DNA from: Aurantiochytrium sp. KH105
Taxonomy: Eukaryota; Sar; Bigyra; Thraustochytrida; Thraustochytriidae
Direction of reading: 5' to 3'
Length of the DNA stretch: 64,000 nt
NCBI GenBank assembly: GCA_003116975.1
Contig: BGKB01000212.1
Location: 1 to 64,000 of the forward strand
In this document: positions 40,302 to 50,373 of the stretch, one piece after another
How the letters are laid out: every line of letters begins with the position of its first letter
How positions within the stretch are numbered: the first letter of the stretch is position 1
Made by a program: the position numbers and the translations under genes
The notes under the pieces: generated by a model
What the model saw: the letters and a program-made list of their open reading frames with translations, nothing else
Told to the model about the DNA's origin: nothing
Databases searched by the model: none

Positions 40302-41307
40302 CTTGAAGACCGAGCTTGTCGCGACCTTCTGTTCCTTCTGCCGCTGCTGCTGCCGCTGCTGCTGCCGCTGCTGCTGCTGCTGCTGCTCTTGGTGGCGTCG
40401 AGCTCGTCCGATCAGGGTTTGGGTGCCGCCAGGATACGCCCCGGTTCTGCGCGGTCCAGGTCGCCCCCGCCTGCCATGAGTCCGCCCGAAGGTACCGCCA
40501 GCGTCGGACTCGCAAAGTGAACGAACCAAGGCAAAGGCAGGGGAAGAGAAGAGCAGCAGAGCAGAAGAGAACAATCAGGATTGCATGAAGCCTGTCGCAG
40601 CAGTCGCTCGAGCCAACTCGTGAGAATCGGCGGGGAAAACGGCAAGGGAGCGGTGGGCGCACTGGAAACTCGGAATAAACAACGCGGGGACAGGAACAAT
40701 GGTGGGAAGGAGGGAAGGAGGTTAAATGGGCGACGACGAGGACTGGAGAGACGCAGTCCTCGTAGCAGTAGTGTCAATCCCTGTTTTCCTTTGCCAAGCG
40801 AGACGCGTGGCTTCACTGTCAGCCAAACCAGTGAGCCGCAGCTGCTGCAGGCAGATGCTTGATCAGGGAGTGATAAAAGTGGTCTTGTTTTTAACGGTGT
40901 GGCCACGCAACGCTGAGTTGACAAATCCGCAATGTCGCCGAGTGCGCACGTGGACGAGAGCGCCAATTCCGCTCCCAGTCTAGCACTCTTCGTCTCCGTC
41001 TTGTCTAGGCTCCTTTCGTCTGACATGCGACGCTCGCGAGTCTCAATGAAGTGGAGATCTCCGCGATTTGAAAAAAAAATCAAAAAAACATTGACAGTGA
41101 AAAAAAAAGTTTACTCCCCGCACGCGCGCGTGAGCGAGACGGAACCCTCTTTCTTTTTTTGCTGCAGACCCAGAACGACGCACGCGAGCGGGGGAAGAAG
41201 GGAGAGCTTGCGTGCGCGCGCACGAGCGAGCGGGCGGAGAGAGGGGCGCGGAGAGGAGCGCGGAGAGGAGCGCGCGCGGGCGCATGTAGAGGAGGAAGGG
41301 CGGCGCG
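40302..41307. promoter_or_regulatory. Divergent spacer upstream of the PTS2 reductase
   Basis: About 1 kb. It includes (CTG)n/(CCG) repeats at 40340-40388 (poly-Gln in one frame of the reductase leader), A-rich runs near 41070-41110, and a GCGCGGAGAG repeat near 41240-41275. No gene was seen. Confidence 0.45.
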
Positions 41308-42688
41308 ATGGCGACCACGAAGCCTTTCGCTGATGTCCTTCTCGACACGCCAATGGAAAAGGCCACGATGGTCGACCTTCTTGCTGCGTACCGTGCAGAG
41401 ATGATGCAACGCGCAGAGCAAGCTGAGCCCGAGCTTTTTAATAACGATTTGGCCCCGAGAAGCTGCGCAAGCTCGCAGTACTCGTCGAGGAGCCGCGGAG
41501 GCCTTGCGCCCCAAAGCGACGTGCAAGCTCGCCTCGACCTATTCCCCAAGCGTGTGACCCGCTGGCGGGATTTCCACGACGAGGTTGGATGGGATGCATT
41601 CAGGCAGGAGGCCGGATTCGGCGACGTCCCCGTCGCGCCGATTTTGTTTCGAACCAACATTCCGGATATCGTTGAGATCAACGAGAATGATGCACTTGAT
41701 CGCTTGCATTCTAGGTTCATGGCCCCAGCGAAGAGTGAGGTGTTTTCACGTTATTCAGACAGCGCGCCAAACGGATGGACGCGCTTTCATATCAATGCGG
41801 CCCCAAAGGCGACGGGCGTTGGGCACCGGGTGGACTATGTGTGGTCTCGTGACATGGTCAATGGCGCTTTCGCTCCAGGGCTGGCATCCTCACCCCGCAA
41901 AATCCGAACCGCGCGCGCTTCCTCGTGCACGAGCATGAGTCGCCTGCGAAGTTCCCCTATGGCCTGACCCAAGACGATCTCGACGAACTCGCCCAGGCGT
42001 TAATGCAAGATACGTCTTATACCCTCGACGAGGCTAAGGAAGTCGCGAACAGCGCCTGGGAGATGGCTTGCGACGACCTGGTCGACTACTGGGAACTGGG
42101 AGAAAGATTCCCTGACCGGGAAAGCTCTGTGCGGTTTCGCTATCCAATTATCCAAATCTACGTTGACATGCTACGCTCTTTCTGCAAGTACGGCGTTCTC
42201 TCCACCACCGACAGGACTTGGTTCTTCAAGCTTGACCACGACAACGTCTTGCACATTTCGGACTCATTCCTCTCAACGGCGACGGGACGCGGATCGATGC
42301 GACATGCGTACGCGTGCATGTTGCGCCGCAACTTGGTCTCCGCGGCGCGCCTGACGCTCAACGAGGAGCATTTGCGGGCCATTTGCCAGTCGGACATTCG
42401 CATCGTGAATCCCGATTGGGCCGAGATGTTGCGCCGATTTGGCAGTTGCGGCGGCGCGGGGAAAACCGCAAGCGGAGGGCGTCGCGGAGCCGCGCTGCCT
42501 GGCAATGGTGATTGTTTGGATCAAGGGTGTATGAAAGGAACTTGTTCGCGCAATTTGCAACGGGTTCATCCGACGGCGGCTGGATCCAGTTGCGGCGCTC
42601 CTCAGGCGATTCATCAGCCATGAAGATTCGGTTCAAAATCTCTGTGAATTTGTCCATTGGAGCCGTCTCTTTTTCATCTTGCGAGTTG
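41308..42688 (+). pseudogene. Unidentified protein gene broken by frameshifts
   Basis: It begins ATGGCGACC at 41308 and reads well for ~195 codons (DVLLDTPMEKATMVDLLAAY, VGWDAFRQEAGFGDVPVAP). Near 41878-41880 the sensible frame moves by one base, consistent with loss of one G in the GGG run, and continues as ILTPQNPNRARFLVHEHESP and YPIIQIYVDMLRSFCKYGVL. Near 42460-42500 another shift leads to a frame with RAICNGFIRRRLDP and VQNLCEFVHWSRL, which is interrupted by a TGA at about 42530. No family was recognised. The segments look like one ~450-residue protein, so either the gene is decaying or the assembly has indels. Confidence 0.5.
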
Positions 42689-43214
42689 ACCGACTTGTCC
42701 GTTAGAGCCGTGGCATTGCCGTCACGCGAGTTGCCCGGCCCCTCTCTGTTTGCCTACTGTGACGCAACATGACTCATTTGAGCCCGAGAATGGCAACGCT
42801 TTCTGACGCGCAAAATTCGCGACAATACTTGTCATTTTTATTTTTATTTTTTTTCTCGTTGGAAGGTTTTCCACGCGGCTTCGAGGCGGCGAAATTTAAC
42901 AGACCCAGTGCGCTTGCCGGGGGGGGTAGCATGGAGAGGAGGGGGGTAGGAAAAAATGGGCGCACAGCGAGGCTCAGCATGAAAAAAACGACCAAGTACA
43001 CCCTCTGTAGCAAGGGTGAAAAATGAGTCGATCATCAAAAATATGACGAAGGCCGCCCTCTGTGGCAAGAGTGTAGAATGGCTCCAATCCCTGCAGTAAA
43101 GGGGTGGAGAGGAAAATGAGCCCAAAATTCGACAAAGTCCAACTGATGTAGTGAAGGGTCGTACAAAGACACTGCAAATGCAAGAAGGAAACGTTTGTAC
43201 ACAAATGATTTCGT
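42689..43214. other. Spacer with degenerate ~50-bp reiterations
   Basis: Segments starting near 42989, 43044 and 43094 share a ...CCCTCTGT(A/G)GCAAG(G/A)GTG... core and its relatives, suggesting an old tandem repeat. G-rich runs lie near 42918-42950. No gene was seen. Confidence 0.5.
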
Positions 43215-43550: not shown

Positions 43551-43770
43551 NNNNNNNNNNNNNNNNNNNNNNNNNNNNNNNNNNNNNNNNNNNNNNNNNN
43601 NNNNNNNNNNNNNNNNNNNNNNNNNNNNNNNNNNNNNNNNNNNNNNNNNNNNNNNNNNNNNNNNNNNNNNNNNNNNNNNNNNNNNNNNNNNNNNNNNNNN
43701 NNNNNNNNNNNNNNNNNNNNNNNNNNNNNNNNNNNNNNNNNNNNNNNNNNNNNNNNNNNNNNNNNNNNNN
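43551..43770. other. Assembly gap of 220 N
   Basis: Unknown bases. A poly-C run follows shortly at about 43838-43850, which may have hindered assembly. Confidence 0.99.
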
Positions 43771-46323: not shown

Positions 46324-49300
46324 TTAGGTCCCATGTTCGATTTCTTGGACATGCAAGATGTGTACCATCCCGCTATCGTCGCCAATAACGTAAACACTTC
46401 CCTGGCGAGCTGATCGTGTAATGTGGTAATCCGTCGTGAAGCCTATGCCTTCGCTAAACTTCACATGCGTTCCGTTCTCAACGTTCACCAACGTGTTTGT
46501 TCCAGGTGTAGTCGATGCCTCCGCTTCATCCGCGTCAAATGCCTCGTCCGTTCGAGCGTTCCAGTAAAGAATTTTATTGCGTGACTGTGAAACGATGGTG
46601 TCGCCCTGTATCGCCACGCTGGTGACTGCATCAGAGTGCCACTTCAACACGTGCTGCTCCTCGCCCGACGTAGCGTTCCAGATGCGGACCGTATTGTCAT
46701 CGGACCCACTGACGATGGTGTTCCCCTGTATCGCCACGCTCCATACCATACCAGAGTGCCCCTTCAACACGTGCTGCTCCTCGCCCGACGTAGCGTTCCA
46801 GATGCGCACCGTGTTGTCATCGGACCCACTGACGATGGTGTCGCCCTGTATCGCCACGCTCCATACCATACCAGAGTGCCCCTTCAACACGTGCTGCTCC
46901 TCGCCCGACGTAGCGTTCCAGATGCGCACCGTGTTGTCATCGTACCCACTGACGATGGTGTCGCCCTGTATCGCCACGCTGTTGACGTCACCAGAGTGCC
47001 CCTTCAACACGTGCTGCTCCTCGCCCGACGTAGCGTTGCAGATGCGCACTGTCTTGTCCGAGGACCCACTGACGATGGTGTCGCCCTGTATCGCCACGCT
47101 CCTGACCCAACCAGAGTGTCCCTTCAACACGTGCTGCTCCTCGCCCGACGTAGCGTTCCAGATGCACACCGTCTCGTCATCGGACCCACTCACGATGGTG
47201 TCGTCCTGTTTCGCCACGCTGTATACCGGACCAGAGTGCCCCTTCAACACGTGCTGCTCCTCGCCCGACGTAGCGTTCCAGATGCGCACCGTCTTGTCTC
47301 TGGACCCACTGACGATGGTGTCGCCCTGTATCGCCACGCTGTAGACCCGACCAGAGTGCCCCTGCAACACGTGCTGCTCCTCGCCTGACCAAGCGTTCCA
47401 GATGCGCACCGTGTTGTCCCAGGACCCACTGACGATGGTGTCGCCCTGTATCGCCACGCTCCTGACCGAACCAGAGTGCCCCTTCAACACGTGCTGCTCC
47501 TCGCCCGACGTAGCGTTCCAGATGCGCACCGTGTGGTCACCGGACCCACTGACGATGGTGTCGCCCTGTATCGCCACGCCCAAGACCGGACCAGAGTGCC
47601 CCTTCAACACGTGCAGCAAAGGGTCGCGGGGATGAGCAAGGGTGACGCGAATAGGCTCCAGCCATGGCTGATCATCAGGTGTTTGCAGACTACGTCTCAA
47701 GGGATCTTTCGAATCGTGACCAAGACGGGCCAGAACTTGCGACGCAAGTTCGTTGGGATCGTAGCTGAGAGCATGCACTGCTTTGCTTAGGAAGCGGGGC
47801 GTATCACTTTCAGGCGCAAAGTAGATGCCAAGTTCGACGCAGTCGCGAATGAGGTTTCCGATTGTTGCGCGCCTTTGCGCTTCATCGTCACCGACAGAGA
47901 TGGCGCTCTTTACCCATGCAAAGTCATTCAGGAGCTCGAAAGCCTCCGCGTGCCGGCCGCTCTTGACGAGGTGAAAGACGGCGTGACGGAGTGAGAAAAC
48001 GTCGTCCAGCGAGCTGCTGCAGTAGTCGGCCAATTGTTTATGCCCGTGTTTTTTCTTCACGAAGAGCTTTTTTCCGCTCTGCTTCTTATCCGAGAGCCAA
48101 TCTGCCATGCGCTTGTGGATGAGCGCCACACGACCATCGCCGCCTTGATATAAGAGATTGCTCGCGTCGTCGACAATTTCATCCATATCATCTTGCTTTA
48201 ATTGCAGAACTGCGCTTAGTTGCTCGACACTCAGCGGTTCACGAGCAGCTACGATTGGCGCCAGGAGCATCTTGTACGTTTTCTCCCCGCCAACTTTTTC
48301 TTGCAGGCGCTCAAAGTACTCTTTGAACATGCCGCCAAGCCCGTTGGGAATTGCGTCTTTGTGAAAGATGTCCTGCAAGGTCAGCACTCCACCTTGTTTC
48401 TCCTCGTGCATCCGGTCCAGGGTCTCGGGAAGGAAGCTCGCCCAGAGAAAGAGACCTTCGGATCGCTCGGAAAGAATCTTGGCGCAAGAAGCAACGTCCT
48501 TTTGCTCCACGGTTTCTTTCATGTCGCACAGCAAATGCTCGATGTGCTTTTCGATGTCGCGAAAGTTCTCTTCGTCCTTGAGCTCCAGCACTTTAGAATC
48601 AAGGCAATTGTTGGTGATGCCGCGTTGAATCTTGCCTTCGGGACGTGTACTCACAACCAAGCTGAGCCATGAGGGCATCACATCCTTCCACGTACGAATG
48701 ACCTTTCGCAAAACATCGTCGCTCTTGCTGCACTCGTCGAGAGCGTCGAGCACGACCACTTGTCGCATCTGGTCTGGGCCGAGATTGTTCAAAGAGTCGA
48801 CGAGAATGGTCTGGAATACGTCGGCCAATGGCTTGTCACGGATACCGCCGAAGCTCATGAAGTCAAGCGCATCGGCAAAGCCAGGCACGCTCAGGCAGAG
48901 CTGCCATGCAATGCTCACAAGAGCCTCTTTTGGCGCAGCGGTCGTGACTTGATCATGCCGAAAGAAATGATACGCCGCAACAAAAATAGGCTGGCGCTCT
49001 TTCTTGCTACGGCGCCACAAGCTACGTACACGTGACGACTTTCGGCGCGGCTCGGCGCGGTCATCAGCCTTGCTCTTTTTGACATCTTCAGCAGTTTTCA
49101 GAGCGCCTCCACGGTGGCAAAGTTCAGCCATGATGACGCTTTTGCCGACGCCGCCGTCGCCCACAAGAATGAAGACGGAACTCTGTTTCTTGTTGTACCA
49201 GTCGCAAAGCTCGTCGATGATCCAGCTTCGCGTGCCGAGGGTAAAGTTTTCCGCCTTGCCCTTGGCCCAAACCTCTGAGCTGCACGGGTTGAGGCGAGGA

Positions 49301-50373
49301 TAGATGTCGCGCATCAGAGGGGTGAGGTCCGATGAAGCCTCGGGTGTCTCGATGCGCATGCGAATGGCATTGGCGAGGCGTTCGATCGCATCGTCCGAAA
49401 AAGTGCCATCCAAGATTTGCGAAAGATCCACCGGTGCTTGCCTTGTGAGCGCGAGCTGAAATCGCCCAGTCCACCCGGTTGCGGGCTTGGTCATATCTTC
49501 TTCCAGCGCGGCGACCACGATGCTGTCAAACCGTTTGTTGCCGGCGTATTGGAACTCCTTAAGACAGTTTTCTGACCGGTCACCTGTGTTGATCTTTTCC
49601 ATGTACCCTTTGGTCGCGAGGACGAGGAATACGGTCGACGAGTCGATGCCATCAGCCATACTTCCATGAATACTGCCTGACACTTGCTGAGCATCGAGCC
49701 AGACGTCAATGTCGTGGTCGCGGAGTCGCAACGCGAGTTCGATGGCCATCTTGTGTACCCATTTGTCTTTGCCCCACTCGTGCGAGAGAAAGGCGTGAAA
49801 GCTCCGGCGTCCTGGCGCACCTACGGCACGGCCTTTTGCGGCAACAGCTTCGCTCATCACCCAATCAGCGGCGTCCTTTGTGGGCTTGCAAAAGTTGATG
49901 AACAAGTCGTCGGAGATGTACCAGGCAAGCGCGCCCATCCAGTCCTTTGTATTAGTCATGGCTTCGTCGATGAGGATGGGCACAAGTGAGTTAGGGAGGA
50001 TCTTTGCCACTGCTTCGATGAGCTCCCAATTCTCTTCGAGTTTTTTGCTCACGAGCAGTAGAGCGACCTCGGCATATTTGGCCTCCTGTTCGGCCTCTGC
50101 GACGATGCTGCCGGTGCGCACGGGCACGCTGAGGCGGGGCTGGATCGCGTGGATTAGCTGCTCGGCCCAGGACTCGTCGGCGGGATCGTGTACGATGAGG
50201 ACGGCGACCTCGGCGAGCACCTCAGGGGGGTCGAGAAGCGCCTCCGCCTGTTCAGACGCGGCAGTATGGAGCTCTGCCTCCGCCTGCGCGGCATCGCTCA
50301 CCTCGACGTCTGCGCGCGCTCCGCCGACGCGGCCTTCGTTGAAGAGCGCAATCAAGTTCTTCACCCTCACCAT
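46324..50373 (-). CDS. TIR-NACHT-WD40 STAND receptor (NLR-like)
   Basis: 1349 residues in one exon from the ATG at 50373; the longer frame begins at TTG. Residues ~50-140 form a first TIR-like fold (VLIVHDPADESWAEQLIHAI, YAEVALLLVSKK). Residues 191-315 are a TIR domain (SFHAFLSHEWGKD, DVWLDAQQVSG, TVFLVLATKGYM), with Glu273 in NCLKEFQYA at the position of the NAD-cleaving Glu of active TIRs. NACHT: Walker A GDGGVGKS at 405-412 and Walker B VVVLDALDE at 539-547, followed by helical ARC-like segments. Residues 921-1279 are nine WD40 repeats of 40 residues. STAND proteins of this order act as ligand-triggered signal switches, often in defence or self/non-self recognition in fungi, corals and bacteria. 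The ligand-sensing part would be the WD40 propeller. Such a role here is inference. Confidence 0.9.
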   Translation of the reverse strand: MVRVKNLIALFNEGRVGGARADVEVSDAAQAEAELHTAASEQAEALLDPPEVLAEVAVLIVHDPADESWAEQLIHAIQPRLSVPVRTGSIVAEAEQEAKYAEVALLLVSKKLEENWELIEAVAKILPNSLVPILIDEAMTNTKDWMGALAWYISDDLFINFCKPTKDAADWVMSEAVAAKGRAVGAPGRRSFHAFLSHEWGKDKWVHKMAIELALRLRDHDIDVWLDAQQVSGSIHGSMADGIDSSTVFLVLATKGYMEKINTGDRSENCLKEFQYAGNKRFDSIVVAALEEDMTKPATGWTGRFQLALTRQAPVDLSQILDGTFSDDAIERLANAIRMRIETPEASSDLTPLMRDIYPRLNPCSSEVWAKGKAENFTLGTRSWIIDELCDWYNKKQSSVFILVGDGGVGKSVIMAELCHRGGALKTAEDVKKSKADDRAEPRRKSSRVRSLWRRSKKERQPIFVAAYHFFRHDQVTTAAPKEALVSIAWQLCLSVPGFADALDFMSFGGIRDKPLADVFQTILVDSLNNLGPDQMRQVVVLDALDECSKSDDVLRKVIRTWKDVMPSWLSLVVSTRPEGKIQRGITNNCLDSKVLELKDEENFRDIEKHIEHLLCDMKETVEQKDVASCAKILSERSEGLFLWASFLPETLDRMHEEKQGGVLTLQDIFHKDAIPNGLGGMFKEYFERLQEKVGGEKTYKMLLAPIVAAREPLSVEQLSAVLQLKQDDMDEIVDDASNLLYQGGDGRVALIHKRMADWLSDKKQSGKKLFVKKKHGHKQLADYCSSSLDDVFSLRHAVFHLVKSGRHAEAFELLNDFAWVKSAISVGDDEAQRRATIGNLIRDCVELGIYFAPESDTPRFLSKAVHALSYDPNELASQVLARLGHDSKDPLRRSLQTPDDQPWLEPIRVTLAHPRDPLLHVLKGHSGPVLGVAIQGDTIVSGSGDHTVRIWNATSGEEQHVLKGHSGSVRSVAIQGDTIVSGSWDNTVRIWNAWSGEEQHVLQGHSGRVYSVAIQGDTIVSGSRDKTVRIWNATSGEEQHVLKGHSGPVYSVAKQDDTIVSGSDDETVCIWNATSGEEQHVLKGHSGWVRSVAIQGDTIVSGSSDKTVRICNATSGEEQHVLKGHSGDVNSVAIQGDTIVSGYDDNTVRIWNATSGEEQHVLKGHSGMVWSVAIQGDTIVSGSDDNTVRIWNATSGEEQHVLKGHSGMVWSVAIQGNTIVSGSDDNTVRIWNATSGEEQHVLKWHSDAVTSVAIQGDTIVSQSRNKILYWNARTDEAFDADEAEASTTPGTNTLVNVENGTHVKFSEGIGFTTDYHITRSARQGSVYVIGDDSGMVHILHVQEIEHGT
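46540..47613 (-). repeat. Nine tandem 120-bp WD40-encoding repeats
   Basis: Period is exactly 120 bp: repeat 1 starts at 47613 and repeat 9 at 46653 (minus strand). Repeats 1-8 are nearly identical, and repeats 7 and 8 differ by one amino acid (Asp/Asn). Differences are concentrated at two residues after HSG, before and after the conserved Val, and at the residues flanking the GS-D of the next loop. Repeat 9 is degenerate. Confidence 0.95.

Follow-up and report, generated by a model that had tools for sequence, protein, structure and literature searches.

A predicted TIR-NACHT-WD40 receptor family in Aurantiochytrium sp. KH105 with repeat units that vary at four codons

Four variable columns in a near-identical repeat array

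How can a gene keep its repeats nearly identical and still vary them at the same few residues? The question is raised by an intact TIR-NACHT-WD40 gene in the first 64,000 nucleotides of contig BGKB01000212.1 of the thraustochytrid Aurantiochytrium sp. KH105 (assembly GCA_003116975.1), the whole stretch being referred to here as the window. The gene lies on the reverse strand at 46324-50373 (all of its features given below are on that strand), where a single open frame encodes 1349 amino acids (aa) from an ATG at 50373 and stays open upstream of that ATG too. We favour, with a probability of about 0.78, the explanation that it belongs to a diversifying repertoire of NOD-like receptor (NLR) genes, working in the manner of the HNWD genes of the fungus Podospora anserina with TIR in place of HET.

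The array consists of eight near-identical 40-codon WD40 units of 120 bp each (46654-47613, aa 921-1240) and a degenerate ninth, capping unit (46534-46653, aa 1241-1280). Tandem Repeats Finder gives a period of 120, 8.5 copies and 90% matches. The initial annotation had counted nine near-identical repeats, which holds for the eight full units; the cap is alike over its first part only. The residues that it had listed by unit were recovered, with PL, SR, RY, PY, WR, DN, MW and MW as the first pair and G/H, W/N, R/K, D/E, S/K, D/N, D/N and D/N as the second, and all four variable residues are identical in units 7 and 8. Variation had been described as limited to fixed sites. It is concentrated there: of 29 residue differences (departures from the consensus among the eight full units), 20 fall in columns 9, 11, 25 and 27 and 9 elsewhere. 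The hypergeometric probability for these four columns, chosen after the data had been seen, is 6e-17; when no columns are named, the best sum over four columns is 20, whereas 20,000 shuffles gave sums that averaged 9.2 and never exceeded 15. Between columns 9 and 11 lies V10, and between 25 and 27 lies D26, both nearly invariant.

An AlphaFold2 model of aa 895-1349, made from a single sequence (mean predicted local distance difference test score, pLDDT, 77.5; 247 of 455 residues at 90 or above; both ends below 50), has strands at positions 10-16, 19-24 and 28-33 of the first unit. Modelling the propeller had been proposed as a check on the variable sites; in this model the b-c turn contains 25 and 27, and 9 and 11 lie at the d-a loop and the beginning of strand a. 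From this strand assignment we infer that the four sites of each blade would make up a ligand surface on the top face of the propeller. A structure search confirmed no more than a WD40 propeller.

Homogenised and frozen genes in one family

The assembly (76 Mb in 367 contigs) apparently holds two haplotypes, as judged from paired loci. Paralogs sharing the repeat, a further check that had been suggested, form a family: a search with the TIR-NACHT part gave 66 rows, equal to about 59 loci with both haplotypes included, a count resting on the 61 of 146 candidates that were scored. Internal stops within the match occur in 2 of the 66 rows; in 44 loci the match spans 707 or more of 733 residues, and 43 of these have no internal stop. 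We read 38 loci in detail (L009-L038 and L044-L051, in our numbering). The GKS of Walker A is retained in all 38, and the candidate TIR Glu in 36 of the 37 members with the site (one has Asp; the 38th, L034, is truncated there). For 34 of the 38 loci, the last unit found runs to position 38 or 39 of the 40-position model. The tail past the array (46327-46533 in the window gene) is alike in most of 30 loci compared at their C-terminal ends, where L022 and L029 stop short and L024 and L037/L038 are more divergent. Array size is 4-13 units in the 31 loci kept as gap-free (omitted are L021, L022, L029, L034, L044, L047 and L051).

A hidden Markov model built from 180 units detects 340 units across the 38 loci, 280 of them in the first 30. 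Gapless units number 225 in those first 30 loci and 272 overall (from 37 loci); the 225-unit statistics exclude 27 units that are partial or carry indels, along with 28 C-terminal caps. For these 225 units the proportion of nonsynonymous differences (pN) is 0.61 at the four codons and 0.11 elsewhere, and that of synonymous differences (pS) 0.54 and 0.34. Column 8 is moderately variable as well across the family, and insertions of 5-6 residues in the b-c loop occur in at least 14 units of 8 loci. Among the 26 loci with at least five units, the four sites all rank within the top five variable columns in 16, with a mean of 3.46 of the four.

The pS of the 35 conserved codons within genes, calculated for the 36 loci with at least three units, leaves a gap between values of up to 0.205, which we call homogenised, and values of at least 0.388 in 11 frozen loci. 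In the homogenised class (26 loci, 174 units) pS is 0.100 within genes and 0.104 between genes, and it is 0.331 for the N-terminal domains of the same loci. Distances between N-terminal domains are unrelated to mean unit distances (Mantel r 0.06, p 0.34; 25 loci, L047 with its two units being left out). On these pS and Mantel results, the homogenised class behaves as a single pool, from which the frozen loci stand apart. The concerted evolution claimed for the repeats of one gene thus extends to a shared pool of units, and diversification at fixed sites stands when tested by codon position: within the class pN is about 0.57 (0.56-0.59) at the four sites and about 0.04 (0.04-0.05) elsewhere.

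Exchange of units among paralogs, a feature of HNWD genes, is found in the homogenised class. A run of three units in L050 is 96.4% identical to window units 3-5, with N parts 77.1% identical in DNA; L013 and L035 share one unit at 120 of 120 positions with N parts 86.1% identical; and the first three units of L020 and L045, which have 11 and 4 units in total with caps counted, are 100% identical with N parts at 93.2%. For 23 of the 26 homogenised loci (L021 being dropped by hand and L029 and L047 having no C part), a tree built on 2211 columns of the N part and one built on 270 columns of the C tail reject each other in approximately unbiased (AU) tests (p 1.3e-45 and 3.1e-6). Nearest relatives often differ among the upstream, N, C and downstream segments of the same gene.

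The homogenised class has 152 distinct four-residue combinations in 166 unique units. Sites within a loop are linked (9-11, z 4.4; 25-27, z 2.9; unit relatedness uncorrected), and pairs of the four sites across loops lie close to linkage equilibrium (z -0.6 to 1.2; 1.6 for column 8 with 25). Few codons serve each residue at the four sites, the dominant codon having a share of 0.75-0.86 versus the 0.55-0.61 expected from N-domain usage. This codon use and the linkage pattern favour a stock of inherited loop variants that is reshuffled. The Nei-Gojobori pS of the four codons, 0.43, is inflated by multi-step paths, and for this reason pN there was compared with the pS of neighbouring codons and with silent differences between units that share a residue.

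Change was also compared pair by pair. Over 9 units of L012 and L014, which have 10 units each (caps counted) and N parts 94.9% identical, differences occupy 19 of 36 positions at the four sites and 31 of 315 elsewhere (Fisher 4.5e-9), unit-by-unit homology being assumed and allelism not claimed. Four allele-like pairs of the frozen class (L037/L038, L030/L032, L028/L033 and L018/L026) are co-linear with equal unit numbers; independent support for their contigs as haplotypes is limited to L030/L032 (contigs C88 and C59).

For the window gene itself, the flank 50600-53600 matches just one place outside the window, C284:38538-41561 (92%), and 36000-41067 matches C286:1777-6816 (94%). L022 lies on C284 next to the flank match and is therefore likely an allele of the window gene; its contig ends within the first unit, so the allelic array is not assembled. 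L036 and L050 have 8 and 13 units and N parts 95.9% identical. We do not claim allelism for them and dropped them as candidate alleles, as the distal L050 flank has no close second match (best 77%, in repeated sequence). One flank of L023 matches C36:400505-401260 (79%), where no family member is listed among the scored candidates, and the other is a tandem array with no match on C36; L023 likely has no partner on C36. Beside L023, around L054, C17:557847-561437 holds a tandem array that repeats about every 700-750 bp.

The predicted receptor and competing explanations

The domains of the window protein are those of an NLR of the STAND (signal transduction ATPases with numerous domains) type. 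We identified a TIR domain at aa 195-323 (49405-49791; Pfam TIR_2, 1.9e-14), with profile matches to SEFIR/TIR structures at E 0.002-0.005. Its Glu273, within C-x-x-E-F (49555-49557), is the candidate catalytic Glu of a TIR NADase, assigned by analogy with plant and SARM1 TIRs. A NACHT-type STAND NTPase domain (NPHP3_N) follows at aa 380-576 (48646-49236; Pfam 2e-17) with Walker A at 49138-49161, and the older NACHT model PF05729 scores under its cut-off (20.2 vs 26.7 bits). The winged helix of the STAND module lies at aa 702-788 (48010-48270; PF25521, TANC1-type, 6e-8). The protein thus joins an N-terminal effector, an NTPase with winged helix and a C-terminal WD40 sensor array. The Pfam scan covered aa 1-920, and among its 8 matches at E<=1 no HET model is present, with TIR_2 there instead. 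PADLOC returned weak matches to Avs1b (3.5e-6) and bSEFIR (4e-5).

The region N-terminal to the TIR domain (aa 50-187, 49813-50226) is possibly a degenerate second TIR-like domain. Weak TIR_2 matches give a hint: 19.4 bits vs a cut-off of 28 in the window gene, and matches in 2 of 11 family members with a best E of 3.4e-4. The unrelated model 4HBT_3C matches the region in 4 of the 11 (best E 0.006), and hhalign of aa 50-187 against a TIR alignment found no relation. An AlphaFold2 model of aa 1-375 was set aside (pLDDT 39). The N-termini of L009-L038 carry at least four alternative short leaders before the shared domains, for example MVRVKSLIARF, MERLRKSIYAVFGRG, MSWATRLLALFKGG and MGWATRLLTLFNRG, and these are possibly swapped signalling or membrane segments.

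From domains, motifs, family and shared pool, we predict that the product is an intracellular NLR-type receptor. Exchange of units within and between genes, by unequal crossing-over and gene conversion, would reshuffle a stock of loop variants, and selection would retain those that recognise a changing ligand, whether from a pathogen or from another individual. By analogy with NLR biology, ligand bound to the propeller face would open the NACHT module and lead to oligomers, in which TIR would act, probably by cleavage of NAD+, resulting in cell death or another defence.

Several observations weigh against a diversifying repertoire or narrow it. Eleven frozen loci have diverged repeats, and once these join, the Mantel r is 0.52 (36 loci), so that repeat distance tracks gene distance. 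The four frozen pairs differ at 11 of 144 four-site and 90 of 1260 other positions (Fisher 0.86). The initial annotation had called the receptor rapidly evolving, which is supported for the class that holds the window gene and, because the frozen pairs lack a four-site excess, is confined to it; equal repeat numbers and nearly equal residues, which it had named as an outcome that would speak against it, are what these pairs of the separate class have. The two classes were defined after data inspection, though the pS gap separates them. In 10 of the 26 loci with at least five units the top five variable columns omit some of the four sites, and the reading covers 38 of the about 59 loci. Several arrays contain runs of N (L044, L047) or end at contig ends (L022) and L051 has a frame break, so repeat numbers elsewhere may be wrong. 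Silent differences in same-residue pairs are 0.18 at the four codons vs 0.075 elsewhere, and a locally raised mutation rate or an older coalescence may therefore contribute there.

The alternative that survives best keeps the same architecture and evolution and changes the role, with receptors that would recognise other individuals, in fusion or mating incompatibility, instead of pathogens. We consider this unlikely, though deserving of weight. Many NLR repertoires with changing sensors act in defence, and the data reported here have no bearing on fusion or mating. Yet in Podospora the genes closest in mechanism, het-d, het-e and het-r, govern incompatibility (PMC12222747). L020 (at the end of contig C17) and L047 (at the start of C36), which by one flank (85%) are at matching positions, are also differing members with N parts 80.6% identical.

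Neutral concerted evolution under relaxed constraint, in which repeats are homogenised and four exposed sites tolerate any residue, is improbable. It agrees with the frozen pairs, in which change at the four sites is no quicker than elsewhere. In the pool, however, the expected difference would be close to the silent rate (0.10), and the observed four-codon pN exceeds the pS of codons nearby more than fivefold, which strains it. Homogenisation alone should also wipe out the differences beside V10 and D26.

Marginally less credible still is targeted mutagenesis, with selection secondary to a mutator acting at the four codons in the manner of a diversity-generating retroelement (DGR) or of repeat-induced point mutation (RIP). 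DGR-diversified putative sensors have been reported in multicellular bacteria (PMC10907252), RIP has been proposed as a helper in Podospora (PMC1805685), and same-residue silent differences here are 2.4 times higher at the four codons. The nearly invariant codons 10 and 26 between the targets would nevertheless require single-codon precision, the few codons per residue point to inherited variants and not to fresh mutation, and no adenine-only pattern is apparent in base counts (a template and a reverse transcriptase were not searched for).

Mis-assembly of near-identical repeats into false sharing and false counts is the least probable explanation of all, because, despite the runs of N, frame break and contig ends noted above and the reported failure of short-read assemblies on such arrays (PMC12222747), the window array is without gaps and keeps its frame, sharing is seen also in N, C and flanking segments that are not tandem repeats, the frozen pairs are co-linear with equal unit numbers, and random misassembly would not limit changes to four codons.

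Surroundings of the gene and comparison with known systems

Long neighbouring frames within 12193-55910 of the window match a BK-type potassium channel, COG6, choline kinase and an O-fucosyltransferase, and these matches place the gene copy in a eukaryotic genome among ordinary genes. A dispersed repeat at 41128-42507 has some 15 or more further copies of about 73-88% identity. An element of about 200 bp at 42803-43001 has at least 17 further copies at 99% identity, which suggests that it spread recently; an Rfam scan gave no match anywhere in the window, this element included. Positions 43551-43770 are a run of N, which may mark an assembly gap. Many family copies lie near contig ends, and a subtelomeric location was suspected. 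It received no support, as no exact five-copy TTAGGG array (the only telomere repeat tried) is present in the assembly, and contig ends may for this reason only mark assembly breaks.

We also identified other NLR-like genes in apparent haplotype pairs, L001/L002 (C59/C88) and L003/L004 (C145/C67), which encode NACHT and seemingly WD40 or TPR C-termini. Their N-terminal stretch is presumably DUF4062-like. A 2026 preprint calls DUF4062 a TIR-like NADase.

The pattern within a single protein is not new, since Hu et al. (2017; PMC5587647) reported hotspot diversity in highly repetitive WD40 proteins, half of them bacterial and about a third fungal. Those proteins, from bacteria, fungi and protists, resemble the present ones in high internal identity and diverse predicted interaction hotspots; unlike here, no multigene pool, unit exchange or NLR context is described in the parts of that paper covered. 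A survey of fungal NLRs with high internal repeat conservation (PMC4986451) describes comparable proteins with internally conserved WD, ANK or TPR repeats, and reports diversifying selection on Podospora NLR repeats; it covers fungi, and the effector here is TIR. Brown-algal LRR-ROCO proteins (PMC11378527) are likewise candidate immune receptors from outside animals and land plants with shuffled repeat units and diversifying selection, but they combine leucine-rich repeat (LRR) exons with a ROC-COR GTPase, whereas the WD40 units here lie in one frame with TIR-NACHT.

Among the matches listed from open-licence literature, no such family is reported from stramenopiles or any other protists, a negative that does not imply absence. 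As far as these searches go, new is a multigene pool of units joined to TIR-NACHT and split into shuffling and frozen genes. In its fullest form the proposal is tentative, and we hold it at somewhat less than even odds: that in a non-fungal eukaryote with ~60 TIR-NLR loci, many draw WD40 units from one recombining stock, with loops that assort independently and change length, and a second set of genes is fixed outside the pool. If true, a protist would have a system that generates an innate repertoire, convergent with fungal HNWD or sharing ancestry with it, and the presence of a shuffling pool and frozen genes in one genome would let departure from the pool be asked about directly.

The closest parallel, which the initial annotation had drawn, remains HNWD of Podospora, the best-studied receptor that diversifies by repeat exchange and selection at four codons. 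Paoletti et al. (2007; PMC1805685) found unit codons 7, 9, 25 and 27 positively selected; these surround the constrained codons 8 and 26 and sit in the d-a loop and b-c turn at the propeller top. Allowing for a unit two residues shorter, they are codons 9, 11, 25 and 27 here. Both systems have NACHT with near-identical C-terminal WD40 repeats, four hypervariable codons flanking two conserved ones in what the model places as the same loops, unit exchange within and between genes, and mostly distinct residue combinations (55 in 69 units there, 218 in 272 here). They differ in effector (HET there, TIR here), in unit length (42 aa there, PMC12222747, and 40 here), in number (10 genes there, about 59 loci here, in an assembly apparently with two haplotypes), in the b-c loop insertions and the separate frozen class found here, and in the incompatibility function known for HNWD. 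HNWD alleles also differ in repeat number; beside this stand the 8 and 13 units of L036 and L050, for which allelism is not claimed, and the equal numbers of the four frozen pairs. In the other sequence features tested the family resembles HNWD, the effector domain excepted, and because that domain is TIR and not HET, we do not file the family as HNWD, even if the HET domain is itself TIR-related (PMC12222747, PMC4986451). The same four positions in a TIR-type NLR family suggest that the WD40 propeller has repeatedly been used as a modular recognition surface, by a process of diversification that would be independent of HET domains.

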